Positions 3,371-59,120 of a DNA stretch of 64,000 nt are shown here, piece after piece. The position numbers and the translations under genes are program-made. Position 1 is the stretch's first letter. Each line of letters begins with the position of its first letter. Under the pieces are notes generated by a model that saw only the letters and a program-made list of their open reading frames with translations, searched no databases and was not told the DNA's origin. Source of the DNA: Anadara kagoshimensis (lineage: Eukaryota > Mollusca > Bivalvia > Arcoida > Arcidae). The DNA lies in assembly GCA_021292105.1 (NCBI GenBank), contig CM037863.1, positions 7,079,298-7,143,297 on the forward strand, read 5' to 3'.

Positions 3371-3853
3371 AAGGTCTATTGAGTTAATATTATTTAGAAT
3401 TTTTCTTTTTCAGACACCCCCAATATGAGAACCTAACTGAAACAATACATATGTGGCGAATTCTGATTTCACTGTACATTTTCTGAACTAACTGTGGCAA
3501 TGAATCCAGGTTTTACTCGTATCGCGGGCCATGCATTTTATGTTCTGACACTTGGTGCCATCATTGTACCAAATCAGCTTCACGACAACTAATGACGTAC
3601 TAGTGTCAATGACGTCACTTATATCACAATTTATGATCAGGCCGAGTTTTCATTCTTTTTGCTTGTAATTCAAGCATGCTGGGCCTTTGTCGGAACATTG
3701 TTGGCGTGGCCGGCGATCAGTTAAATGTCGGCAATGAATCGAGGGTTTATTTGTTTTTACTTTTAGAATTGTCTGAAATTTGAAATTGTCATAAAATTGT
3801 CACATCTGATCTTTGGCTGGAAATGTCTTGATAAAAGATAATATACATGTAGC

Positions 3854-3859
3854 TTTATT
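3854..3859 (-). terminator. Candidate polyadenylation signal AATAAA
   Basis: AATAAA on the minus strand, about 207 bases after the stop codon of the secreted-protein exon. The spacing suits a short 3' UTR, but the hexamer is common in AT-rich DNA. Confidence 0.3.
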
Positions 3860-4065
3860 CTAATGCAACATTTTTGAACCATTCAAATCATATTTTGTTT
3901 AGGATTGACGCTTATGAAGGAAATGTGACGTATAAGTTCCTGTTTTTGTAATGCTTAGAAACCGGGAAAAATGACGTGAAAAGTGTCAAAGTGTATATGC
4001 TTATATTTCATAAATAACAAATTTGAAAGACATTTACATTCGAAATGATAACTATAAAGCAATTA

Positions 4066-4784
4066 TCATTTCCCTATAAGAAACAGTTTGTATTTTAGAG
4101 AGTCCTTATTAGTCACAGGAGAAGCTGCGGGTCTGTTGGAAGTCGAAGATCTAAGCATTCCGGCAAGACTTGACATAGCACCTTGAATTGACAATCGTCG
4201 ACTACCACTACGCTTCCTCATTTTATCCGAATTCAAAATTCCGTTTACCCTTGACTTGATCGAATATTTTCCCAAATCTGAAGAATCTGCTTCGTCTAAA
4301 TGTTTTGACCCGGAATGACGTGCGGCTGCCTGCATCGTATCCGTTAAACCATTTCTAACATCGAACACTACATTTTCCGACTTTTGACAGAAGGTGAAAG
4401 CATGACCATATTTGAATTTCTGAAACACCCTTATGTATCCGAGTGGGCATGCGTTAATATCCAGAAGCACAGTATATTTGTTCCGAAACTGTGGCTTCAC
4501 ACCATGAATGCCCGGATTGTGTAAGTAATACTTCTGATGGTTTCGGAGAAAATCGGAATTAACAAATTCGTTCGTTTTATCCGACACAGTATCGTAATTT
4601 TTCGTGTTGATATGGAAGGATTTTGATGGAGACCAACGCTTCAAAAGTTTTAGATTATTTGGATTAAGAAAATATTTGTGTCCATTGATCCGTGACGTTG
4701 CGTTGACCTTTAACCTTCCGATGATGAATAAACAGGATAGACAGAGTACGTAGATGTATACCTGCATATTCCAGCTTTTAGAAT
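4066..4784 (-). CDS. Terminal exon encoding an unrecognised secreted protein (233 aa)
   Basis: I do not recognise the family. The frame is open further upstream, but TTATAATTTCAG is a good splice acceptor with its AG at 4786-4785. I therefore place the exon at 4784 and the start at the ATG at 4767; the stop is TGA at 4068-4066. Residues 1-23 look like a signal peptide: a hydrophobic run VYIYVLCLSCLFIIG, then a likely cut after VNA (A23). The mature part is basic and serine-rich, with only two cysteines, C107 and C127. These bracket a 19-residue aromatic/basic loop that could be closed by a disulfide. Possible convertase sites are K43-R44, R184-K185-R186 and R190-R191. A secreted precursor, perhaps a peptide hormone or matrix protein, is plausible, but no amidation-type GKR site was seen. 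An upstream 5' exon is implied and was not located. Codon use is ordinary and there are no internal repeats, unlike the array frames nearby. Confidence 0.62.
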
Positions 4785-4796
4785 CTGAAATTATAA
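4785..4796 (-). promoter_or_regulatory. Splice acceptor of the secreted-protein exon
   Basis: On the minus strand the sequence reads TTATAATTTCAG followed by ATTCTAAAAG, a pyrimidine/T-rich tract ending in AG. It lies 17 bases upstream of the chosen ATG, so the intron would sit in the 5' UTR. This is seen in sequence; use as a splice site is inferred. Confidence 0.55.
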
Positions 4797-4864
4797 GAAA
4801 AAATGAATTAAAAAAATATCTGAGTTTCAACGATACTTAATAAAATATTAAGTTGAAAAACATG

Positions 4865-4914
4865 TACAGAACAGATCTGTCCAAAATTAAACAGTAAGCT
4901 AAAGAATAGGTGCC
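4865..4914 (+). mobile_element. Family B MITE, left end only, leading into the 31-bp array
   Basis: TACAGAACAGATCTGTCC and AAACAGTAAGCTAAAGAA match the family B left terminus. The matching right terminus was not found beyond the array. Confidence 0.5.
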
Positions 4915-5702
4915 GACTCGGCAGCTCGACACCTGGACCCTCGTCAAATCGGCAGCTCGACAACTGGACCCTCGTCAAGTCGGCAGCTCGACACCTGGAC
5001 CCTTGTCAAGTCGGCAGCTCGACACCTGGACCCTCGTCAAGTCGGCAGCTCGACACCTGGACCCTCGTCAAGTCGGCAGCTCGACACCTGAACCCTCGTC
5101 AAGTCGGCAGCTCGACACCTGGACCCTCGTCAAGTCGGCAGCTCGACACCTGGACCCTCGTCAAGTCGGCAGCTCGACACCTGGACCCTCGTCAAGTCGG
5201 CAGCTCGACACCTGGACCCTCGTCAAGTCGGCAGCTCGACACCTGGACCCTTGTCAAGTCGGCAGCTCGACACCTGGACCCTAGTCAAGTCGGCAGCTTG
5301 ACACCTGGACCCTCGTCAAGTCGGCAGCTTGACACCTGGTCCCTCGTCAAGTCGGCAGCTCGACACCTGGACCCTCGTCAAGTCGGCAGCTCGACACCTA
5401 GACCCTCGTCAAGTCGGAAGCTCGACACCTGGACCCTCGTCAAGTCGGCAGCTCGACACCTGGACCCTCGTCAAGTCGGCAGCTCGACACCTGGACCCTC
5501 GTCAAGTCGGCAGCTCGACACCTGGACCCTCGTCAAGTCGGAAGCTCGACACCTGGACCCTAGGCCTTGTCAAGTCGGCAGCTCGACACCTGGACCCTAG
5601 GCCTTGTCAAGTCGGCAGCTCGACACCTGGACCCTCGTCAAGTCGGCAGCTCGACACCTGGACCCTCGTCAAGTCGGCAGCTTGACACCTGGACCCTCGT
5701 CA
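4915..5702 (+). repeat. 31-bp minisatellite, about 25 copies
   Basis: Unit TCGGCAGCTCGACACCTGG + ACCCTCGTCAAG. Two units carry a 6-base insertion (TAGGCC) near 5560 and 5600. Because 31 is not a multiple of three, every frame reads the same peptide phases and stays open, producing spurious frames of 100-124 codons. The unit resembles the internal family B segment TCTCGACAACTGGAGCCGT at 16231-16260. Confidence 0.93.
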
Positions 5703-6699: not shown

Positions 6700-7080
6700 C
6701 ACTTCTTGTACAACGAAGTAGGCTGCTTGCAAATAAATTGTTGACTCAGGGATATTGCAAGCCTAGGCTTATCAAGGCCCTCAAAAAGTTTTATGGCCGT
6801 CATCACAGTATTGTTGATTAGTTTGATGTATCTGTGTCCAGGATTGCCTTGGATATATTTGACGTCTCATAGTTTCATGTTCCTTTCACACAATTTTGAT
6901 TACACACGTGACGGGTGTAGCTAGCTAAACAGGAGGTACTTACCCTTCCGGAGCACCCAGCCTCACTTCCCTGGTGGAAGTTCACGTGTCTAACCTAACT
7001 TGTCAGTTCCAAAGTTTTTACTTTGCTTCTGGATTGTGATTCGGAAATGGATAAGTATGTTTGTTTTTGATTCTAACAAA
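6700..7080 (+). repeat. Family A copy, longest 5' extent
   Basis: Starts near TTGTACAACGAAGTAGG, includes GCAAGCCTAGGCTTATCAAGG, the CACACGTGACGGGTGTAGCTAGC core, CTTCCGGAGCACCC and TGGAAGTTCACGTGTC, and ends GTATGTTTGTTTTTGA. With 25745-26096 it defines a consensus of about 380 bp. No coding frame or tRNA-like promoter is evident. Confidence 0.8.
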
Positions 7081-7454
7081 TAAATATACTGCTCTTTATA
7101 TTTTCTGCTAGCTTAAATATCAAAATCTTCAAACTAAGGTATTCTTCTCTAATGCAAAGTAATTCCTTAGCTAAATTTGTCATTAAGATTTAAAAATTAC
7201 AAAATATTTTGTCAACTTTCAAAATTAATGCAAAATGACAATAAGAAAATGGTAATGATAAAAAAAAATATTCTAGTCAAAGTTCTATTTACGAGAAATT
7301 GTATTCCGATCTGTTTTGTAAAATTAATAGTGGTGTAATATTAATAAATATGATGGCTGATATCAGCCGTCCTAATGTGTTCCATTTGTCATTGTAAGAT
7401 TTCTATTGTCAGTTTTATTTAATATTATTCCAAAGTTATACTGATCATTTTTGA

Positions 7455-7560: not shown

Positions 7561-8182
7561 CAAAATTAGTGAGAATTATAACGTTTAAGATCAATATAAC
7601 CTGACAGTAGAAACCTGACAATGACAAATACTGTACGTTTCAGTAGGTTTAGACGACAAATATCGGTCATCGGAGATCAGACTGCCGATGAAGACACAGC
7701 CATATGTCAAATAAGCTAACAAAAGATTTCATAACATTTAACTTTGTACAAGCAATAAAACCATATATATCAAAATTTCACCTATCTTTTTAGTTTAAGT
7801 TTTGATAAACACATATAAAAAGTTACAAATACAGATCTTTGTATAAATAAATCTTCTTGAATGTAGCCTATTACATTGGATTAATCTATCTTTTTGCCTG
7901 ACGATTTGTACCAAAAAGTAAAGTACAATATATTATCAAGGAATTGAACAATGAACGAAATTGGAAACATAAAAATATGTTGCCATGGCTCTGATTAAGC
8001 TACCTGTAAAAGTATTGTCAAAAATATACAGTCCTTTTTTATAATTATCTGTTTTATTTCATTCAATATACATTTACAAAGACTTAAACATTATACAAGA
8101 GCAAGACGCAAAACAATGTATAATGAATAGTTTAAATAAGAGACAGATAGAGATAGAGATGATATCGATACCTTAAAATAAA

Positions 8183-8348
8183 AAACAAACATACTAATCC
8201 ATGTCCGAATCACAATCAAGAAGCATAGTAAAAACTTTGAAAATAACAAGTTAGGTTAGACACGTGAACTTCCACCAGGGAAGTGAGGCCGTGTGCTCCG
8301 GAAGGATAAGCACCTCCTGTTCAACTAGCTACACCCGCCACGTGTGTA
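8183..8348 (-). repeat. Family A copy, 5'-truncated
   Basis: From AAACAAACATACTAATCC to CCCGCCACGTGTGT; only the 3' half is present. Confidence 0.75.
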
Positions 8349-8401
8349 GAAAACATTTACCATATATACTTCTTTATCGACTGTGATACAAGAAAACAGG
8401 T

Positions 8402-21350: not shown

Positions 21351-21709
21351 ATTACTAAACTAAGAAAAAGGTATCAACAGACATAGATATTATCCATATA
21401 TATCCTAATCAAGAAGTAATTATTCGTTATATGGACCATGAATGAAAATAAATATTGTCTCTAAGTGTCATAAATGCTTCAATAATAATGTTTAGATACA
21501 CGCACATACGAAAACAGAATGTATAGTGATTATTAATTTTGTATCAATAAATTATTTAGATTTTGATCGATTATAAGATGATGCTCCTTGGGAAATACCA
21601 CATTAACTCAGATTAATAAAACGATATTACTAGAATATTATTGTGTCAAATTTGATATCTATAATTCTATCATTTATCTATAAATTGATCATTTACCTAG
21701 AAGTATATG

Positions 21710-21973
21710 ATACTACTATTGATGTCTCTGTGTCCAGGATTGTCATGGATATATTTGACGTCTCATAGTTCCATGTTCCTTTCACACAATTTTGATTACA
21801 CACATGGCGGGCGTAGCTAGCTAAACAGGAGGTTCTTACCCTTCCGGAGCACCCGGCCTTACTTCCCTGGTTGAAGTTCACGTGTCTAACCTAACTTGTC
21901 AGTTCCAAAGTTTTTACTTTGCTTCTGGATTGTGATTCGGACATGGATTAGTATGTTTGTTTTTATACTACTA
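21710..21973 (+). repeat. Family A copy with a 9-bp target-site duplication
   Basis: The element occupies 21719-21964, from TTGATGTCTCTGTGTCC to GTATGTTTGTTTTT, and ATACTACTA flanks it exactly at 21710-21718 and 21965-21973. It starts well inside the consensus, so 5' truncation happened at insertion. Confidence 0.78.
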
Positions 21974-22039
21974 TAAAAATATATATCACACAGTCTTCAT
22001 TAAATTATTTAAAAAACAACAGATAGAAAAATGACAATG

Positions 22040-26096: not shown

Positions 26097-26857
26097 AAGA
26101 AACAATGAAAAAGTCTAGTTAGATCAGGAGTCCTCGATCAAACTAGAGATCAGAAAAGTTTTGACTACTGTTGCAGATATTGATAAGTTCATTTAGTATC
26201 TTTTCTTTTATTCCCTTGTATATTTCTACATGAGGTGCAATTCTTTTTTATTTTATTGAACCGTTTGGCGAATATTTCAAATTTCAATTTCATAGAAAAT
26301 TTTGATAAAAACCATGGCTTATATCTTCAATCATTAAACGCACCGATTTGATTAAATATGGTCATCTATTCGTTAAAGGAGTGTCAGAAAATTTCCAGGT
26401 AAAGATTAACATATAGGTTTCACATAAGTCTTCATATTATTTAATTATTCATAAGCGAGAGACTTTTTAGGTCACAAATGTATCATAAAAAACAATCATA
26501 TACATCAATCATTCTTTTAGTTTTTTTTTGCATGAATCAGTTTTAGTTTTTGCATCTGTTATCACGCCACTTTACCATTACTTCTGTGTTCGGCATCAAA
26601 CAATTTTGTCTATAAATTATTCAGAATCTCTCGATATGGTTTCTTATCTTAAAATATTTGTCTAAACATTACATCTAATTGCAAGAGATAAAGAATCATC
26701 AATAATTTTAAAACATGTGCTCTAATTATTTATCAATATTTTATGAAATTCAATACGTTTTAGATGTTCTGTTAACTTTGGGAATAATCGTAGAACTGAA
26801 ATTTTCCAAGTTTTATTGGCTCTATTGGTTTATACCATTATTTTGTCCTATATATTC

Positions 26858-27174
26858 AAAAACAAACATACTAATCTATGTCCGAATCACAGTCCAGAAG
26901 CAGAGTAAAATCTTTGGAACTGACAAGTTAATTTAGACAAGTGAACTTTCACCAGGGAAGTGGGACCAGGTGCTCCGAAAGGGTAAGCATCTCCTGCTTA
27001 GCTGGCTACATCCGCCACGTGTGTAATTAAAATTGTGTAAAAGGAACATGGAACTACGGGACGTCAAATATATCCAGGGCAATCCTGGACATAGAGACAC
27101 CAAACTTGATAGGCTTAGGCCTGCAAAATCCCCGAGTCAACAATTTATTTGCAAGCAGCTTCTTCGTTGTATAA
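26858..27174 (-). repeat. Family A copy, nearly full length with internal deletion
   Basis: Runs from AAAAACAAACATACTAATC to GCAGCTTCTTCGTTGTA. The block between ACACCAAACTTG and ATAGGCTTAGG, which in the 25745 copy holds CAATACTTTGATGACG, is deleted. Confidence 0.75.
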
Positions 27175-31503: not shown

Positions 31504-31844
31504 ATTATCAAAGATAAGTGCTCAATGATAAGAAATAAGAAATGGCGTGCTAAGCCCCAGTCAAAATATTTCACTTATATCGAGGCAGTCTAATGAAATG
31601 GGGAAAAATAAGGAGTAAATTTATTGGCTTAAAATACAACAAAAAACAATCATATATATTTATTTATTTTTATTGGCGTAATCTGGCCACGGCGAAAATG
31701 AAGGAGCCGAGACTCCAAATGAGTCTGTAATGGGCATCCTTAGAAAATAAAATATGTTGTACCCTGGTATCAGTTGTACAGCATAAAATGTATGATTTTC
31801 CAATCTATTTTGAATAAATAGGCTGGTAGCGCAAAAATATGCCA
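31504..31844 (-). repeat. 341-bp repeat B2, outer end of the split-repeat element
   Basis: Near-identical to 32361-32700, offset 857 bases. Its outer edge, ATTATCAAAG, abuts a family A remnant ending at about 31500. Confidence 0.7.
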
Positions 31845-32110
31845 TTCAAAGTCTTTACATTCAAAGTCCTTACAATGAACTTAAAATCAGTAATCAGTTT
31901 ATCCTGTATTCCGCCGTGACGTTATATGGACTAATCTACATGTACAAGTACCAATGAACTTAAAATCAGTATTCAGGTTCTCCTGTATTCCGCCGTGAAG
32001 TCATATGGATCAATCTTCAAAAGGAGGTATATACATGTACAAGTATCCTGAAATAGAAAGAACAAACAACAGCAGTAACTGATACAATGAACAGGGGAGG
32101 GAAGGGTGGG
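31845..32110. repeat. Spacer with an internal duplication of about 80 bp
   Basis: A block beginning CAATGAACTTAAAATCAGT and running through TGTATTCCGCCGTGA and TACATGTACAAGTA occurs twice (about 31873-31951 and 31953-32045). The end is purine-rich. Canonical split-repeat elements usually lack such a spacer between A2 and B2, so it may be a later insertion. Confidence 0.5.
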
Positions 32111-32361
32111 TGAAAATCTTTATAAAACTGCAAACTCACGGAGATAACACCGCGCTTTTATACAGGAGCTTGACATAAGAGTTGACCTAAACTCAGGACA
32201 AGGACACACGCGGTACTGCCAAATCACGACGATATATAACACCGTGCTTTATACGGGTGCGTGACACATGAGCTGACCTAAACTAGGACAAGGACATGAG
32301 AGGTCCAATAAAGGAGCACCTTACTTAGATAAACGGATTTAATATATAACATTAAATCTCA
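32111..32361 (-). repeat. Internal copy A2 of the 251-bp repeat
   Basis: Matches 36890-37140 throughout on visual comparison. On the plus side it is preceded by a purine-rich run ending GGGAAGGGTGGG, and the 340-bp repeat follows without a gap. Confidence 0.7.
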
Positions 32362-32700
32362 TTATCAAAGATAAGTGCTCAATGATAAGAAATAAGAAAT
32401 GGCGTGCTAAGCCCAGTCAAAATATTTCACTTATATCGAGGCAGTCTAATGAAATGGGGAAAAATAAGGAGTAAATTTATTGGCTTAAAATACAACAAAA
32501 AACAATCATATATATTTATTTATTTTTATTGGCGTAATCTGGCCACGGCGAAAATGAAGGAGCCGAGACTCCAAATGAGTCTGTAATGGGCATCCTTAGA
32601 AAATAAAATATGTTGTACCCTGGTATCAGTTGTACAGCATAAAATGTATGATTTTCCAATCTATTTTGAATAAATAGGCTGGTAGCGCAAAAATATGCCA
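32361..32700 (-). repeat. 340-bp repeat B1 of the split-repeat element
   Basis: Matches 31504-31844 except for one base (a run of four C versus three near GCTAAGCC). It contains CCAGTCAAAATATTTCACTTATATCGAGG, a stretch also found in the 3' region of SINE family 2. Open frames inside it (e.g. the minus frame 32516-32722) are mirrored in the other copy and look non-genic. Confidence 0.7.
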
Positions 32701-33528
32701 CATGACTAATTTTAAACGCCAATAAAATTAGTCAGCGCCACCAGACAAACAAAATAAATCACAATAGATATGTATATGAAAAATCAAAATGTTTGAAACA
32801 AAATTCAAACTAAATAAATAAGTAAATAAATGTAAATTGTAAATAGTGCCATGGCCCAGATTAGCCGTCAGGGGGAGAAACAATGAATTTTTAATGAGTA
32901 AATAAATATATAATACCTAGATTATAAATAAAAAATAATTACCAAATGACAAATGTACATTAAAAGATCCTCATTTTCCTCAACTAGGACAAGATATAAT
33001 CATAGCATTAATTTAGTACAACAGGGGGCGTGGCTGGTGCGGTATTAATGTTACTGCTATACAAATCCTTGATCTACAACATTCCATGACATATTAGGAT
33101 TTTTTTCCTTCAGTCAAAACTGAATATCATAATTTGACCAACCAGCTCCCGGTTATGATTAGTTCGATTTGCTCCTAATCTAACGGTATACATGTATTTA
33201 AATATACCGGCAACACATTTCGGATGAGCTGACGTATATATAGACGAAAAATCCAAAAGGCATCAGTCCATTTTTGGATGTCGGTGATTTAAATGATTGA
33301 GATTTGGGAGTTATAACCAGTTTACCATCTTTCAAAAACATTTTCGGTTTTTTTTAATATATTGCGCACCGAATTCGCGCATCCAGTTTGCGTTATTGTC
33401 TGTGTAAGTGGTGCGACATTAGAAATGAAATGATATACTTGCAGTACACGAAGACTGTAAACATCCGGCTTTCTTTTAATCAGTATTCAGTAATATAAAT
33501 CGTCTAAATCGTACAATAAGTGATCAAA

Positions 33529-33684
33529 ATGCCTCTTAGAAGAAGAGGACGGTTTATTAAAGTATCGGAGAAGAAAAGTCGAGAAGACAGTTCTGCCAAC
33601 ATGATTTAAATGAACAAATCTGGTCCAACTGTTGTCGAACCCGAACGTACTTCTCAACCACTTGCTTCGAAAATAATAATATAA
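33529..33684 (+). pseudogene. Short broken reading frame of unknown origin
   Basis: An ATG starts a very basic 26-codon frame (PLRRRGRFIK then EKKSRED) ending in TAA at 33607. The same frame reopens at once with an ATG and runs 24 more codons to TAA at 33682-33684. A TATATATAG box lies about 295 bases upstream at 33234. It could be a captured first exon or an old transposon frame with one nonsense change. It lies inside the split-repeat element in the opposite orientation to the gag-like exon. Low confidence. Confidence 0.25.
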
Positions 33685-33689
33685 TGTCT

Positions 33690-35270
33690 TTTACAGTAAA
33701 CATAAACACATGGAAACCATACAACGGTGAATTGTCCGAATTTCATCACAACGTGCAGCACATAGGATCTATCTTTCTTGTGTAATCCAAAATGAAAAAA
33801 CGGTACGGCCTATAATCCGAGTATTACTTACACAGATGCACAAAATGTAAACTAACCATGGTATAGAGTTATCTCTCTGACCATGCCACAAAGTAATGGA
33901 AATTTATGCAAGTTAAAAGAGATATTAGGATGTTGACATGGTTGAACAAAACTGTTGTATTTTGTTCTTTTCATTGGAGTTTTTGAATTCCTATAGATTC
34001 GCAGATATTTTTACGATAATTAAGAATCTATTTTTGTACGGCGTTTCACGACAGTGAACGCGTACTTTGCTATCGCTTTCTTCCAAGATATCGGGCTTCT
34101 TTGCTATGAAATTATAAGATATGAGTACGCATGGAAATAGTGCGCCTGGTAAATGAGCGTGAAAGAAATATATGTTTTATCGTGAGATATGTATTCTGAG
34201 ACGGGTAATGCATTTGGTTACATATGCCCATTTGGAATAAATTTTCGGAATACATTTCGGAATCTAGTAAAATATTGCGACGGGATGAATCCAATAATTT
34301 CTGCAATTTGGCGAACTGATCTCGTGTTTACAATAAAAAGTAGTCCCGAGAAGTTTGCGTCCTACGATGTAAAATCATAACTTTTATGAAATAAACAGCA
34401 ATGGCAGGTGGATTTAATTAATTTTTGAAATCTACGGTAATTTAAATTTATTTTGAAAGGTATGATAACTTATTTTGATGTTGAGGCAATCGTGTCATAT
34501 TTTAAAACTGTTTATCGATTAGATTTCACTTTTGTGAAAGGGAGATAATTCGTAGTGTTGTGTGCAAATGACCACATGTGGATTTTAAATACTTCACCAT
34601 TAACATGAAACGGGAATATTGTGAGTGATAATCAGCAGTTTATTAAAACCCAGATTTAACAGCAAATGACCCAGTTACATACAATCGCTAGAATGTATCC
34701 CCTCATAGCGACGGTAGGGTTTGCAAAAATCTACTTTCTCTCTATCCGAAATGACAAAAACGATCGGGTACGACTTTATAAAAATATATTAAATTTTAAT
34801 TACTGATTGTCTTTTTCATATATTTATCCATTTTAAGAAATAATTATTTTCTACCATTTAATTTAGCAATACATGGTTTGGTACATTGTTTCTTTTTCCA
34901 AAAAACATCCGTCGGACTATGCATATATCGACCCCCCCCTTTCCCGGGGGTGGGGGGATTTTCGGTTATATTCTGTCTTGCCACAACACCATTTTGCCAA
35001 CTACGCTGTACAACAGCACGGCAGTGCTATGTTTAATATCCAGATTATATAAACATCGATTAATATTGTAAATAATATGTAAAAACATAGTAGTTTGTTT
35101 TGTGTATTGTCAAGAATCTGATGCTAATATTTGAATTAACTGAAAAGAGAAAATCTTTTGGGGATTTCAAATTTTATCAATGGGAAATTTTGAAAAATTA
35201 TGGGGTAGGGGTAATTTTTTTATTTTTAAATCCGAAAATACCCTGGTGACGTATCAGTTTCTTTGCTTTT
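33690..35270. other. Interior of the split-repeat element without recognisable genes
   Basis: No frame above about 65 codons. No reverse transcriptase or recombinase motif was seen on either strand. Confidence 0.45.
34930..34962. repeat. GC-rich C/G runs in AT-rich DNA
   Basis: ACCCCCCCCTTTCCCGGGGG followed by TGGGGGGATT, a C-run/G-run foldback. It lies inside the split-repeat element. Confidence 0.7.
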
Positions 35271-35275
35271 GTGAA

Positions 35276-35470
35276 GTACATTCAATTCAATTCATTTATT
35301 CCGTAAGTTCATATAAGTTATTGGTACAATAAATACATTATATAACAATTTAAGTACTGTAACAGTAGATACATGATAGCACATAATCGGAGATATATTT
35401 AATAATATAATAATAATAATAATAACAGTAAAAATAATACTACTAAACAGACATTTATAGATATAACGAG
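35276..35470 (-). mobile_element. 3' UTR and tail of the truncated non-LTR element
   Basis: Downstream of the RT stop on the minus strand there is an AT-rich segment with an ATT-type run at 35390-35425. It then ends in TTGGTACCAATAACTTATATGAAC-like sequence and GGAATAAATGAATTGAATTGAATG. A short tandem repeat tail (ATTGA)n rather than poly(A) is typical of CR1/L2-like elements. Confidence 0.55.
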
Positions 35471-35690
35471 TTAACAATCATTTCGGAATTTGACAGCTTT
35501 GCAGAGATATTTACCGAGATTACACAGTTGCTTTACATTATTGACACTAAATAAATTGAATAAGTTTATAAACACTAGGTTTGATCCAAAAATATGGCTC
35601 GATATATTGCTTTCTAAGACTAGAATAAACAGGACATTTAAGAATAAAGTGGTACTCATCTTCGACAATTTCAGAACAAAAATTACAACA
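35471..35690 (-). pseudogene. C-terminal fragment of a non-LTR retrotransposon reverse transcriptase, frameshifted
   Basis: The minus strand reads C-C-x-x-C, then VEDEYHFILKCPVY, then a run ending PSVYKLIQFI followed by a stop. A one-base shift restores similarity with LFSVNNVKQLCNLGKYLC and a stop at 35471-35473. The C...H...C motif with EDEYHF-KCPVY and the closing N-V-x-x-L-x-x-Y pattern are characteristic of the extreme C-terminus of CR1/L2/Jockey-type polymerases. Stops occur just upstream of the first cysteine, so the copy is 5'-truncated and dead. Which superfamily it belongs to is uncertain. Confidence 0.72.
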
Positions 35691-35699
35691 TCATAGTTA

Positions 35700-36365
35700 G
35701 GTTATACTTTTAGCAGATTTTGATAAGATTTCCCGTGGTAGATTTTTTTGTACATGAAAATGTATGAAAATTTTTAGAAAAAGGCGTTAAAATGAGCACT
35801 TTCTCTTATGTATTTTTTACCAATTATTTTAATAAATGTCCATTAAACTGCTACCTTTGACATTTTTGAACATGTTAAATATGGGTATGATGTAGTTTTG
35901 CTGTTTATAACATTTTAATGAATTTCTCGAGTTTGTTTGAGGTTGATTTTTCAATTTATACCGAATTTCGGGTAAAAATGCGATATCCTAGAAATACTGC
36001 ATATATTGAACAAGTTATTTAAAAATTAAATGTGGTGACCTACCATTATTTTTGCATATTTTTGTTTGCATGTTCATATAGAACAAACAGTGTAAAAAAA
36101 TTAGCTTGTTTTGAGTGGTGGTTCTATGTCATAGCATATGCCTTTAAAGAGATATTATTGGTACAATTTTTTGGATCAGATGGTTTTGATATAAATATAG
36201 CTATTACTGATAATTTTCAGGTTAATACTATTAGCAATATTATATCCCAAATCATGAATACTCCAATTTGAGCATTATTAACGTCATTATTATTATTAGC
36301 ATGAAAAGTATTAACAAAACATATTACCTGGATTTTCAGGAAGCTGGCTTGAAATTACAGGTTGA
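35700..36365. other. Interior segment between RT fragment and gag-like exon
   Basis: A 79-codon plus frame (36032-36271) starts with a hydrophobic stretch but shows no recognisable domain. Considered non-coding. Confidence 0.4.
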
Positions 36366-36370
36366 AAATG

Positions 36371-36617
36371 TCATGCTGCTGCAAAATATAAATTTTGCAG
36401 AACGGCCGAGGTGACCCTTTGTGTTAAGTCGTCCATGTTTACAGGTAGTTGAAGTGGCACGGGATTCACAGGGGCTGGTAAAACTAGTTCATCATTTTGC
36501 GGTGGAGCCGCAGGCTGGGGAATATTGGCAGGTGCTTCCGCATTCCGACGTAGTCTTGCATTTGTCACCACCGGGGCTGGTATGGCCCGGACTTGGCGCT
36601 GTCCAACTCGTGGCATA
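36371..36617 (-). CDS. Gag-like N-terminal exon of the split-repeat element
   Basis: The ATG at 36616-36614 opens MPRVGQRQVRAIPAPVV and continues 81 codons to TGA at 36371. The product is proline/alanine-rich and basic at the start, acidic in the middle (QNDELVLPAP), and ends in a possible helix DDLTQRVTSAVLQNL. This composition resembles the N-termini of gag/ORF1 proteins of retroelements, but I cannot name a family. TTATTTAG|T just before the ATG is a plausible acceptor that would pair with the GAG|GTAAGT donor at 36889-36881, giving an intron of about 265 bases. The short length suggests the rest of the frame was deleted. Confidence 0.45.
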
Positions 36618-36880
36618 CTAAATAACTCAAACAATAACAAAAACGCTATTTTAGTAAACCAGTAAAAACTAAAAATAAATAAACAAATAAATAAATAAAT
36701 AATGCTTATTAAAACCCATTAAAATAGTGAATGGTAAATTATTTTAAACAGTGGGATAAAAATATAGAAAAAAAACAATTATAAAAGTATTTATAAAGAC
36801 AGGTAGTTGTATGTTACAGAATTTATAAACATAAAGATAAAAATGAAAAAGCAACTTTTAAAAAGATAAAATACTACGAA

Positions 36881-36889
36881 CTTACCTCG
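36881..36889 (-). promoter_or_regulatory. Consensus splice donor after terminal repeat A1
   Basis: The minus strand reads CGAG|GTAAGT, a close match to the eukaryotic donor consensus, directly downstream of the duplicated TATA promoter and about 265 bases before the gag-like ATG. Splicing is inferred. Confidence 0.45.
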
Positions 36890-37140
36890 TGAAAATCTTT
36901 ATAAAACTGCAAACTCACGGAGATAACACCGCGCTTTTATACAGGAGCTTGACATAAGAGTTGACCTAAACTCAGGACAAGGACACACGCGGTACTGCCA
37001 AATCACGACGATATATAACACCGTGCTTTATACGGGTGCGTGACACATGAGCTGACCTAAACTAGGACAAGGACATGAGAGGTCCAATAAAGGAGCACCT
37101 TACTTAGATAAACGGATTTAATATATAACATTAAATCTCA
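36890..37140 (-). repeat. Terminal repeat A1 of the split-repeat element, with duplicated TATA promoter
   Basis: 251 bp, identical on reading to 32111-32361. On the minus strand it starts TGAGATTTAATG and ends AAGATTTTCA. It contains two successive blocks, CCGTATAAAGCACGGTG and CTGTATAAAAGCGCGGTG, each followed by GTTAT, so a TATA-type core promoter appears twice. GAG|GTAAGT, a consensus splice donor, lies immediately beyond it at 36889-36881, which suggests the transcript starts here and is spliced to the gag-like exon. Confidence 0.6.
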
Positions 37141-37238
37141 TTATTAGGAATGTAAATTTATTTTTCGCTTAATTTAAGATACATGTATTTAAGTATTGTC
37201 GTATCAAAATGACTTACTGATACACAGAATCGAGTAAT

Positions 37239-37770
37239 CGGGACCCACATGCGTATAGACGGAGACTTCGCTCATTACTTCCCTCCGGGGTTCTCAGACA
37301 TCAAATCGGACCCATATGCGTATAGACGGAGACTTCGCTCATTACTTCCCTCCAGGATTCTTAGTTATCAAATCGGGACCCATGTGCGTATAGACGGAGA
37401 ATTTGTTCATTACTTCCCTCCAGGGTTCTTAGATATCAAATTCGGACCCATATGCGTATAGACGGAGACTTCGTTCATTACTTTCCTACAGGGTTCTCAG
37501 TCATCAAATCGGGACCCATGTGAAAATTTGTTCATTACTTCCCTCCAGGGTTTTCAGACATCAAATCGGGACCCGGCCCACATGCGTATGGACGGAGACT
37601 TCGCTCATTACTTCCCTCCAGGCATCACAGTCATCAAATTGGGACCCACATGCGTATAGATGGATAATGTGTTTATTTACTTCCAACCAGGGTTCTCAGA
37701 CATCAAATTTAAACCCACATGCCGTATGGACGGAAACTTCGCTCATTACTTCCCTCCAGGCATTTATGGG
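37239..37770. repeat. Minisatellite of about 67 bp, about 8 copies
   Basis: Unit CCACATGCGTATAGACGGAG + ACTTCGCTCATTACTTCCCT + CCAGGGTTCTCAGACATCAA + ATCGGGAC. It lies about 95 bases outside the split-repeat element. Open frames here are array products. Confidence 0.9.
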
Positions 37771-37789
37771 TTCTTTTAACCATTAACTC

Positions 37790-42395: not shown

Positions 42396-43388
42396 TACAG
42401 TCCTGATGAAAATTTAACACTTAGCTAACGAAATATTGCCGAATCTTGACCCCCTATTAGCTATACCTGGACATTTTACTACAGTTGCTGCCGAATCTTG
42501 GCCCCCTATTAGCTATACTTTGACATTTTTTACTACAGTTGCTGCCGAATCTTGACCATCTATTAGCTATACCTGACATTTTTACTATAGTTGCTACCGA
42601 ATCTTGAGCCCTATTAGCTATACCTGGACATTTATACCACAGTTGCTGCCGAATCTTGAGCCCTATTAGCTATACCTGGACATTTATACCAGTTGCTGCC
42701 GAATCTTGACCCCCTATTAGCTATACCTGGACATTTTTACTACAGTTGCTGCCGAATCTTGACCCCCTATTAGCTATACCTGGACATTTACACCACAGTT
42801 GCTGCCGAATCTTGACCCCCTATTAGCTATACCTGGACATTTATACCAGTTGCTGCCGAATCTTGACCCCCTATTAGCTATACCTGGACATTTTTACTAC
42901 AGTTGCTGCCGAATCTTGACCCCCTATTAGCTATACCTGGACATTTTTACTACAGTTGCTGCCGAATCTTGACCCCCTTATTAGCTATACCTGGACATTT
43001 TTACTACAGTTGCTGCCGAATCTTGACCCCCTATTAGCTATACCTGGACATTTTTACTACAGTTGCTGCCGAATCTTGGTCCCCTATTAGCTATACTTGG
43101 ACATTTTTACTACAGTTGCTGCCGAATCTTGACCCCCTATTAGCTATACCTGACATTTTTACTATAGTTGCTACCGAATCTTGACCCCCTATTAGCTATA
43201 CCTGGACATTTATACCACAGTTGCTGCCGAATCTTGACCCCCTATTAGCTATACCTGGACATTTTTACTACAGTAGCTACCTATCAGTCGACAGCTATTT
43301 GGTCTCAAGCTAGCCGTATCTCGGCAATTCGGCAGCCGAACTCCACCTCCTTTTGTTAGGCCAGTGCTACATTTACGACAGATCTGTA
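42396..43388. mobile_element. Family B MITE expanded to about 1 kb by an internal array
   Basis: Left TACAGTCCTGATGAAAATTTAACACTTAGC, right GCTACATTTACGACAGATCTGTA. Between them lies the 53-bp array, followed by family B body sequence (TATCTCGGCAATTCGGCAGCCG). Confidence 0.65.
42430..43275. repeat. 53-bp minisatellite, about 16 copies
   Basis: The unit begins GCTGCCGAATCTTGACCCCC and continues TATTAGCTATACCTGGACAT then TTTTACTACAGTT. Variants lose a few bases in the TTTTTACTACA part, so spacing ranges from about 50 to 54. Confidence 0.92.
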
Positions 43389-48724: not shown

Positions 48725-48903
48725 GTGCTCCGGAAGTGTAAGCACTTCCTGTTTAGCTAGCTACAGCCGCCACGTGTGTAATCAAAATTGTGTGACAGAA
48801 ACATGGAACTATGGGACGTCAAATATATCCAGGGCAATCCTTGACACAGAGACATCAAACTTATCAACAATACTGTGATAAAGGCCATAAAACTTTTTAA
48901 GAG
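48725..48903 (-). repeat. Family A copy lacking its 3' end
   Basis: Starts GTGCTCCGGAAGTGTAAGC and runs to ATAAAACTTTTTAAGAG. It is unusual in lacking the 3' end that most copies keep, so it was probably broken after insertion. Confidence 0.7.
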
Positions 48904-49739: not shown

Positions 49740-51020
49740 GTAATAGCGAATAGTTACGCCCAGTCAAAATTATGTTACTAATTGCGAAAAGGTTACGCTG
49801 CCAGTCAAAATCATTTCACTAATTGCGAAAAGGTTACGCTCCGGTCAAAATCATTTTACTAATTATATAATTGAGAAAAGGTAACGCTGCCAGTCAAAAT
49901 CATTTCACTAATTATAAAATTGAGAACAGGTTACGCCCTGGTCAAAATTATTTCACTAATTATATAACTGCAAAAAAGGTTACGTATGGATTAGTATGTT
50001 TGTTTTTTATAACGCCCCAGTCAAAATCATTTCACTTATTATATATTTGAAAAAATGTTACTCCCGGTCAAAATCATTTCACTAATTATATAATTGTGAA
50101 AAGGTTACACCCCGGTAAAACTCATTTCACTAATTATATAATTGAGAAAAGGTTACGCCCCGGTCAAATTTATTTCACTAATTATATAATTGAGAAAAGG
50201 TTACGCCGAGTCAAAATCATTTCACTAATTATATAATTGAGAAAAGGTTACGCCCCCGTCAAAATCATTTCACTAATTATATAATTGAGAAAAGGTTACG
50301 CCCCGGTCAAAATCATTTCACTAATTATATAATTGAGAAAAGGTTACGCCCGGTCAAAATCATTTCACTAATTATATAATCGCGAAAAGGTTACGCCCCG
50401 GTCAAAATCATTTCACTAATTATATAATTGAGAAAAGGTTACGCCCTGGTCAAAATCATTTCACTAATTATATAATTGAGAAAATGTTACGCCCTGGTCA
50501 AAATCATTTCACTAATTATATTATTGAGAAAAGGTTACGCCCCGGTCAAAATCATTTCACTAATTATATTATTGAGAAAAGGGTTACGCCCCGGTCAAAA
50601 TCATTTCACCAATTATATAATCGAGAAAAGGCTACGCCCCGGTCAAAATCATTTCACCAATTATATAATTGAGAAAAGGTTACGCCCCGGTCAAAATCAT
50701 TTCACCAATTTTATAATCGAAAAAAGGCTACGCCCCGGTCAAAATCATTACACCAATTATATAATTGAGAAAAGGTTACGCCCCGGTCAAAATCATTTCA
50801 CTAAATATATAATTGAGAAAAGGTTACGCCCTGGTCAAAATCATTTCACTAATTATATAATTGAGAAAATGTTACGCCCGGTCAAAATCATTTAACTTAT
50901 TGCGGAAAGGTTACGCCCGGTCAAAATCATTTCACCAATTATATAATTGAGAAAATGATACGCCCGGTCAAAATCATTTCACTAATTATATAATTGAGAA
51001 AAGGTTACGCCCAGCCAAAA
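49740..51020. repeat. 48-bp minisatellite, about 26 copies
   Basis: Unit TTACGCCCCGGTCAAAATCA + TTTCACTAATTATATAATTG + AGAAAAGG. Early units (49740-49860) lack the TTATATAATTG part. Because 48 is a multiple of three, a 139-codon frame at 50476 repeats LRPGQNHFTNYIIEKR; this is an array effect. The unit resembles the SINE family 2 stretch GTCAATAATATTTCACTTAT. Confidence 0.93.
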
Positions 51021-51401
51021 TTTGTTCACTAATATTCAAAAATGGTCAGTTCAATGGGATCGAGTATTTGAAGGAACCCGACGGTATTCGAACTGATAAA
51101 CTATCTCACACTGATTTGCTTGTGGAGTTGTAACCTAGATGGCACTATGATCCTTTATTACAGCCTTGAAATCACTTTGCCACTATTCCAACCCCACACC
51201 TCAGACAACCTAGGGTACAACTCACAGACAAATGAAAAATACACCCGACAAGATGAACACGTGTTGAGACCTTTCCTCTTTTACCGCACACGAAGAAAAA
51301 AGTAGCAACTGAAAAGTTTATGCTTAGCAACAGTCTCCGTAACCATGAACACGAAACAATACAAAGATGTCGATAATGCTTATGATAAAAAGCCATAATC
51401 A

Positions 51402-56174: not shown

Positions 56175-56395
56175 CATAATCAAAAACAAACTTACTAATC
56201 CATGTTCAAGTCACAATCCAGAAGCAAACTAAAAGGTTTGAAACTGACAAGTCAGGTTAAACACGTGAAGTTCCACCAGTGAAGTGAGGCCAGGTGCTCC
56301 GGAAAAGTAAGCTCCTCCTGTTTAGCTAGCTGCACCCGCCATGTTTGTAATCAAAATTGAGTATAAGCAACATGGAACTATGAGACGTCAATTAT
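56175..56395 (-). repeat. Family A copy
   Basis: AAAAACAAACTTACTAATCC to CTATGAGACGTCAATT. It lies between the two SINE family 3 copies. Confidence 0.7.
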
Positions 56396-56399
56396 TAAT

Positions 56400-56722
56400 G
56401 TTGACGTTAAATGGAGGCATGCTTGTTCAGGAATGGTAGAAGAAACCGATGTAAAAGAAGTAAACCCGCCAGATGTGGCAAACCTTTTCACACTGGTGTT
56501 TGCCCCGGAGTGGGATGCCAACTTAGGCGTAAATAGGCATTATGTGTAAGCGGACGCTTTAAACCATTCAAACACCGAGGCCCCTATGCCTTGAAACAGG
56601 ACCATAAGAACAATTCTTTTTGAGTTACACATTATAATAAGAAACGGATAAAAAATTATAGTTATTGGAGTAGAAACAGGGATAATATCTTATTTCTTAT
56701 TTTAAGATACATTAAGATTGGC
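56400..56722 (-). mobile_element. SINE family 3 copy
   Basis: Parallels 55755-56095, with GGTGTTTGAATGGTTTAAAGCGTCC and a damaged B box (GTTGGCATCCCACTCC). The two copies flank a family A insertion, so they may be a duplication split by that insertion. Confidence 0.5.
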
Positions 56723-58570: not shown

Positions 58571-58654
58571 TCTTAGAATTGACATACCAATTCATATCAA
58601 TATCACAATTCTAAATAAAAGTAAAACGTTGAAAGTGTCAAAATAAGTTAAAAT

Positions 58655-58937
58655 AATGGCCGTCACCACAGTATTGTTGATAAGTTTGATGTCTTTGTGT
58701 CCGGGATTGCCCTGGATATGTTTGGCGTCTCGTAGTTCCACGTTCCTTTCACAAGTTTTGATTACACACGTGGCGGGTGTAGCTAGCTAAACAGGAGGTG
58801 CTTGTCTTTCCGGAGCACCCGGCCTCACTTTCTTGGTGAAAGTTCACATGTCTAACCTAACTTGTCAGTTCCAAAGTTTTTACTTCGCTTCTGGATTGTG
58901 ATTCGGACATGTATTAGTATGTTTGTTTTTGATTATA
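58655..58937 (+). repeat. Family A copy, arm of an inverted pair
   Basis: GGCCGTCACCACAGTATTG to GTATGTTTGTTTTTGATT. Well conserved. The copy at 58940-59120 lies in the opposite direction immediately after it. Confidence 0.75.
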
Positions 58938-58939
58938 CA

Positions 58940-59120
58940 CGGGACTTTCCACAAGAGAAGTGAAACCGGTCAATCCGGAAAGGTAAATAATTCTTATTGT
59001 ATCTAAACCCGTCATGCGTGTAATCAAAACTATGGGACGTCAAGTAAATCCGGGACAATCCTAGACATAGATACATCATATTTATCAATTATATTGGGAT
59101 GGTGGTCGAAATAAAGTGTT
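58940..59120 (-). repeat. Family A copy, second arm of the inverted pair
   Basis: CTTTCCACAAGAGAAGTGAAACC to TGTAATCAAAACTATGGGACGTC and on to the CAATTATATTGGGATG segment. It has lost its own 3' end. Confidence 0.6.

Follow-up and report, generated by a model that had tools for sequence, protein, structure and literature searches.

A young non-autonomous split-direct-repeat family, very probably derived from a Ngaro-type tyrosine-recombinase retrotransposon, in the genome of the bivalve Anadara kagoshimensis

A 64,000-nucleotide stretch of the Anadara kagoshimensis genome (contig CM037863.1, positions 7,079,298 to 7,143,297; hereafter the window) carries on its minus strand, between window positions 31504 and 37144, two pairs of almost identical direct repeats, A and B, arranged around an interior that encodes no recognisable reverse transcriptase (RT) or recombinase. 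The locus raises the question of what kind of mobile element leaves such an arrangement, and how a family without its own enzymes could have spread. The window copy is very probably a young member of a non-autonomous family that arose from a Ngaro-type tyrosine-recombinase retrotransposon and was mobilised in trans. A preliminary description of the locus had proposed a recent split-direct-repeat element of PAT/Ngaro kind.

In the orientation of the element, the copy begins with the 5′ split direct repeat A1 (36889..37144; 251 bp plus a 5-bp core at 37140-37144), followed by a 4188-bp interior (32701..36888), repeat B1 (32361..32700; 340 bp, with AATAAA signals) abutting A2 (32110..32365), a spacer S (31845..32109), and finally B2 (31504..31844; 341 bp, with AATAAA at B positions 171, 177, 181 and 220). 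A1 and A2 were 100% identical over 256 bp including the core, and B1 and B2 were alike except for one single-base indel within a short run of G. The overlap between B1 and A2 was exactly ATTAT (32361-32365, plus strand), which constitutes the internal B-A junction, and the same five bases stood at both outer ends of this copy. On remeasurement the repeats agreed with the preliminary description (a 251-bp pair identical, a 340/341-bp pair one base apart, in the order claimed), and the spacer lay between A2 and B2 as stated, with a length of 265 bp and not 266. No further full-length A or B was found in the window, the next best match being 48 bp of B at 83% identity. Split direct repeats with identical pairs, as expected of Ngaro elements, were present in the window copy, and the same layout was seen in three of the coding relatives described below.

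The window's own genome (1,115,223,567 bases in 36 contigs) was searched with repeat A, and the best 40 of 118 candidate matches were scored. Thirty of these 40 formed 15 pairs, the window included, spaced by 4.0-4.8 kb in 14 pairs and by 9.6 kb in one, a regularity that argues against chance repeats. The 14 other pairs and five of the ten single matches were read. The order A1-interior-B1A2-S-B2 was found at 14 of the 15 paired loci, window included, and the middle of the interior (33200-34600) matched the same paired loci, whole or piecewise, at 90-100% identity. The preliminary description had named the lack of any other locus with this order as the result that would tell against it; the search returned the opposite. 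Solo A-S-B units stood at three of the five single loci (L024, L026 and L027), and the other two (L025 and L028) consisted of A1 and the start of the interior, with the opposite end beyond the stretch read. One family copy, L022/L023, has an interior with an extra insertion of ~4.8 kb.

Family members were dispersed over many contigs, with like borders and different flanking bases. This dispersal, with varied flanks and constant borders, contradicts a plain duplication, tandem or segmental, that had nothing to do with transposition, an explanation to which next to no credence is given; such events do occur, as in two coding relatives (L030 and L033) whose flanking bases were identical and which were counted as one insertion. 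L030 and L033 are both on C3, with 1.1 Mb between them, and represent a segmental duplication that includes a coding relative.

The outer ends of the copies were then compared. GAGATTT was preceded, at 20 outer A1 ends, by TTAAT in nine cases and ATAAT in six, with GTAAT, CTATT, ATATT, TCATT and TTTAT found once each. The final T is most likely part of A because it is the only invariant base in the 20 ends. At the 17 outer B2 ends (L020, L025 and L028 provided none), TTTGATAA was followed by T in eight, A in eight and C in one, and because of this variation the last base is assigned to the target. What is conserved is TAA plus the element-derived T on the A side. Of the 17 copies read at both ends, 14 had unequal outer 5-mers, the window being among the three with equal ones. 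ATTAT at both outer ends and at the B1/A2 junction, as described earlier, is therefore a true statement of the window copy that does not extend to the family, in which outer-end ATTAT was seen in three of 17 copies.

These ends bear directly on another reading, in which a long terminal repeat (LTR) retrotransposon or a different element of DDE type duplicated ATTAT as a 5-bp target and the locus was rearranged locally. This reading would explain the equal bases at both ends of the window copy and two of the 16 others. It is exceedingly improbable, because a DDE-type duplication would equalise outer 5-mers that in fact differ in 14 of 17 copies, and the relatives encode a tyrosine recombinase. 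The window's ATTAT was rejected as a target duplication on the same count, and the earlier claim of insertion without duplication was borne out by the sister copies. The ends point to insertion without a 5-bp target duplication through a shared TAA-like core, in a pattern of recombination that appears close to the 3-bp junction of DIRS1-like elements. The latter are reported to have a 3-bp core, mostly NTT termini with ATT the commonest, and no target duplication (PMC3266345), the corresponding junction here being GATAATGAG; DIRS1-like elements differ in their inverted rather than split direct repeats and in their methyltransferase. A satellite of 68-bp units (37236-37780) adjoins the insertion.

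Coding relatives were identified in the same genome. The 81-residue peptide at the start of the interior (36616-36374), which begins a gag frame, had 46 genome matches, some in frames of 180-368 amino acids. Relatives L029, L030, L032 and L033 were read, covering four of the nine recombinase loci of the subfamily. Three of them (L030, L032 and L033) showed the order A1...B1A2-S-B2, spacer included, and L029 showed A1...B only. Between the repeats lay a gag with a cysteine/histidine-rich end, RT, a presumed RNase H, a tyrosine recombinase and an SGNH-like frame. Pfam analysis of L029 and L030 identified the RT of L029 as RVT_1 (E 1.7e-8), and L032 and L033, compared with the L029 frames only, gave tblastn matches to the RT, RNase H, recombinase and SGNH-like frames. 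The recombinase frame was open over 341 amino acids in L029 and 342 in L032, and inspection by eye showed FFRVGE, HSFR and, late in the frame, a Y, which are presumably the R, HxxR and Y of a tyrosine recombinase. In the genome as a whole, 118 recombinase matches were scored of 532 candidates; the nine loci with 79-100% identity each had a same-strand gag match 2.3-3.4 kb upstream. Relatives with RT, presumed RNase H and recombinase frames, as the preliminary description had envisaged, thus exist and share the same ends.

Repeats A and B of the window were 87-92% identical to those of the four relatives, and the gag and 3′ untranslated region (UTR) parts 78-83%; the higher identity of the ends fits their being kept for recognition by trans-acting enzymes. 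A fifth relative, L031, was 79-87% identical to the window in its gag parts and had one A, a partial B, and no coding match to RT or recombinase.

The interior of the window copy is a decayed version of the same element. Its gag start (36374..36616) runs for 81 codons to a stop, and the second piece of gag (32992..33332) was 82-83% identical to L029 and L030. The two are separated by a 2.8-kb insertion (33333..36141) with AAAG on both sides; gag is contiguous in L029, L030 and L031, the last of which is also without the insertion. When aligned to L029 and L030, the interior was continuous over positions 1-747 and 3557-3897, gag included; past position 3897 the alignment skipped ~3180 bp and resumed where the SGNH-like frame ends and the 3′ UTR follows, with two or three bases shared at the joint (approximately 32988..32991, mapping to L030 1718-4897 and L029 1603-4783 in element orientation). 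This 3.18-kb deletion took the gag end, RT, RNase H, recombinase and most of the SGNH-like frame. The remaining end of that frame and the 3′ UTR (32701..32987) are common to the coding relatives. Consistent with the mapped deletion, RT, RNase H and recombinase were absent from the 29 interior frames scanned with Pfam, and for this reason the copy is filed as a non-autonomous derivative and not as a complete Ngaro element. The preliminary description was right in calling it non-autonomous, with RT and recombinase gone and gag interrupted; it erred in supposing that the interior had been replaced, since what remains is gag with a 2.8-kb insertion, a 3.18-kb deletion and a normal 3′ end.

Inside the 2.8-kb insertion is a 5′-truncated non-LTR retrotransposon fragment (35279..35691) with a GAATT-type tail, ATG on both sides and a weak zf-RVT match (E 0.2). 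A late insertion of this fragment into the window copy was rejected, as it is present in sisters; it is absent with a visible empty site from six other sister copies (L016-L021), and absent from L028 also. The presence of the 2.8-kb insertion in sister copies, and of the non-LTR insertion in a subset, implies that defective interiors were themselves copied, and that the insertions and deletion became fixed in source copies before their amplification. About 570 bp of the gag insertion (~34030-34600) are a high-copy genomic repeat: 19 scored places matched just this part of a 1401-base query at ~95% (40 scored of 2978 candidates). A captured host gene in the interior was rejected for want of a credible coding match. 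Pfam analysis of 30 window frames (29 of them interior) returned weak matches only, the best being Pcf11_C (E 0.0074), which was below the cut-off and not credible. The gag peptide gave 14 pattern matches in viral contigs, none confirmed, and nothing in plasmids, and a 26-base pattern of A found nothing in viral contigs.

Indications of an RNA step came from a putative intron in the 5′ UTR (36626..36885), with donor GAG/GTAAGT, acceptor TTTGAG and an alternative acceptor, TTATTTAG, whose end lies 8 nucleotides farther downstream. CACGAG closed A1 in all 17 family copies read with A1. It was followed by an intron-like stretch of ~260 bp in 15 of these, beginning with GTAAGT in 14 and with GCAAGT in L019. 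In L017, CACGAG was joined straight to TTATTTAGTATG and in L020 to TATGCC. Among the relatives, L031 had the L020 form, the coding relative L032 joined CACGAG to GTATTTAGTATG at the L017 acceptor, and L029, L030 and L033 kept the intron. Exact absence of the intron was therefore observed in two of 17 family copies and two of the five relatives, with one donor and two acceptors used in copies of different subfamilies. The best reading of the four intron-less copies is that spliced RNA was copied back into DNA. They provide strong though indirect evidence of an RNA intermediate, that is, of transposition through RNA, and because the window copy is itself without RT they are the strongest evidence for retrotransposition. 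Together with the sister copies and the coding relatives with the same ends, they support the assignment first made, to split-direct-repeat retrotransposons with a tyrosine recombinase.

The repeats could also have been produced without any RNA step by a Crypton-like tyrosine-recombinase DNA transposon, through insertion in tandem of a long A-interior-B and a short A-S-B unit. Formally the locus does read A-x-B then A-S-B, solo A-S-B units exist, and Cryptons of fungi and oomycetes are reported to have short terminal direct repeats (PMC3212892). This origin is nevertheless very unlikely: 14 of the 15 paired loci read share the compound order, it is contradicted by the intron-less copies and by the RT between the same ends in relatives, and animal Cryptons are reported to lack terminal repeats (PMC3212892).

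Homogenised repeats also favour the Ngaro-type reading. Calculated from family copies alone, the divergence of A1 from A2 in one and the same copy was 0.0021 substitutions per site (15 copies), versus 0.0104 for A repeats of different copies; for B the values were 0.0065 (14 copies) and 0.0175. The window copy had no substitutions in 586 compared sites (251+335); with A1 equal to A2 and a single indel between B1 and B2, its description as young was upheld.

Within tyrosine-recombinase retrotransposons, the preliminary placement as PAT/Ngaro was narrowed, with Ngaro fitting better and PAT less well. A PAT-like element, of DIRS/PAT-clade descent and bearing a methyltransferase, would have the same split repeats, and the mollusc Lottia is reported to carry PAT elements with repeats of this kind (PMC4157794). 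Pfam, however, found no methyltransferase at E 0.01 in the 10 scanned frames of L029 and L030, and an SGNH-like frame follows the recombinase, as reported for amphibian Ngaro (PMC9210276). A PAT-like origin is accordingly judged unlikely.

Ngaro elements have been reported in bivalves (PMC10294476, PMC8905726), and among the closest counterparts of the present family are Ngaro-like retrotransposons such as DIRS-53_XT of Xenopus, reported with the order A1 - frames - B1 A2 B2, A1 equal to A2, B1 equal to B2, and gag, RT/RNase H, tyrosine recombinase and SGNH frames (PMC9210276). The window copy differs in having no RT, RNase H or recombinase and in missing most of the SGNH-like frame; its 265-bp A2-B2 spacer and 5′-UTR intron are not mentioned in the available portion of that account (PMC9210276). 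VIPER/SIRE of Trypanosoma cruzi likewise has split direct repeats, and its non-autonomous unit is A2, a short unique stretch and B2 (PMC6681497). That stretch is reported as ~30 bp in the kinetoplastid SIRE versus 265 bp here, and SIRE is the short unit only, whereas in Anadara a long defective element is repeated too (PMC6681497). The Ngaro of Cafeteria burkhardae is described with split direct repeats, solo AB units as recombination products and variants with deletions in open reading frame 1 (PMC8547959); in that description B1A2B2 has no spacer, and the deletions affect that frame and not RT and recombinase. No non-autonomous Ngaro family appeared among the titles and abstract openings listed by a literature search aimed at such families, outside which lay Repbase and subscription papers, and no priority is claimed.

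All 15 paired loci have the spacer S, as do the three solo copies and L030, L032 and L033; it is absent from L029. In the window copy it holds two 68-bp segments that are 88% alike and 79 bp apart. The main variation of S among copies is in how many ~79-bp units it contains, with one more in L016, L021 and L027 and one fewer in L030. S is thus a lineage feature, not peculiar to the window copy. The preliminary description had considered the spacer atypical and a possible mark of a new subtype; it proved to be a trait of the lineage, coding relatives included, and SIRE is reported with ~30 bp in that place (PMC6681497). Near the start of S, a stretch resembling a polypyrimidine/AG 3′ splice site was recognised by eye, ending in CAG (TAG in L030); a regular-expression scan for acceptors did not list it and returned only one, at 35153. 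A role of S in RNA processing is proposed. That the layout A1 - frames - B1A2 - S - B2 is a distinct one, in which S is a working module, A-S-B acts in the manner of an LTR and the processing of its RNA is important to the replication of helper and parasite, is put forward tentatively, as a possibility with the chances somewhat against it.

These features suggest a route of replication. Within repeat A lie two tandem units, spaced by 90 bp, and both contain TATAAA and CAGT; in the second, TATA stands at A position 204 and CAGT at 236, predicting an RNA start at about 36908. The TATAAA and CAGT of A and the AATAAA of B keep their positions in L029 and L030. Close to its end, A1 would hold a promoter that starts the RNA at about A position 237, the 5′-UTR intron would sometimes be spliced and the spliced form copied back, and the RNA would end at the poly(A) signals of B2, at about B position 200. 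Because such an RNA starts late in A1 and ends within B2, the complementary DNA would be without the outer parts of both, and precisely these parts are found next to each other in B1A2. In the standard model for split direct repeats, B1A2 supplies the template for the lost outer parts; here it would serve to close a circle with a B-A junction, B-GATAATGA-A. A tyrosine recombinase, provided in trans by coding relatives, would then join the junction GATAATGAG to a TAA-like target without duplication. An analogous circle model has been published for DIRS1 (PMC3266345). With an interrupted gag and neither RT nor recombinase, the family has to rely on helpers, and we infer that the coding relatives act as such in trans.

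Several observations weigh against the Ngaro-type, RNA-mediated reading or parts of it. The family was delimited from the limited set of scored A matches noted above, and at L020, the one paired locus without the full order, B2 was not recognisable in the stretch read. In the relatives, the RT region of L029 and L030 is split across two frames, and Phage_integrase was detected in the L029/L030 analysis at E 9.3e-5, under the curated cut-off. RNase H was named from motifs that we take to be typical of it, as was the SGNH-like frame from GSS, GGND and DGVH; Pfam at E 0.01 gave no match for either in the L029 and L030 frames. Any one intron loss taken alone could have arisen by deletion at a microhomology, with GAG or AG at the joint. 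The proposed signals are not rare: the window has 14 loose TATA-to-CAGT patterns, of which four fall in A copies, and its element strand has 13 AATAAA, of which eight fall in B copies. Simple homogenisation does not accommodate L012, in which B1 and B2 differed by 13 substitutions (12 in another alignment), nine of them in one 16-base tract. This tract of the L012 B2 sits at the first poly(A) signals, and no other B copy read was close to it.

Tyrosine-recombinase retrotransposons are comparatively little studied, and the circle model rests largely on the structure of the ends. A single genome here provides defective copies, solo units and coding relatives, all with the same ends; natural intron-less copies point to an RNA step, and 17 end pairs locate the recombination core, to the base, at TAA. 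The family also illustrates how such a parasite originates, from gag insertion through enzyme deletion to amplification in trans.

Other recombinase subfamilies in the genome, at ~40-52% to L029, included many copies of equal score with long open frames, for example a 341-amino-acid frame at 43% to L029 that was found with equal score at ten loci. These are probably further very young Ngaro-type families.

Elsewhere in the window, a 256-amino-acid open frame on the minus strand (4066-4836) has a hydrophobic stretch like that of secreted proteins and no credible Pfam match. Tandem arrays occupy 4794-5685 (31-bp units, open in more than one frame), 42437-43292 (53-bp units) and 49842-51067 (48-bp units). 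A dispersed repeat family, in both orientations and ~60-95% alike, with cores such as CACCTCCTGTTTAGCTAGCTACACCCGCCACGTGTG, is represented at 6780-7087, 8162-8368, 21685-21979, 26851-27107, 48725-48901, 56175-56431 and 58652-58945.

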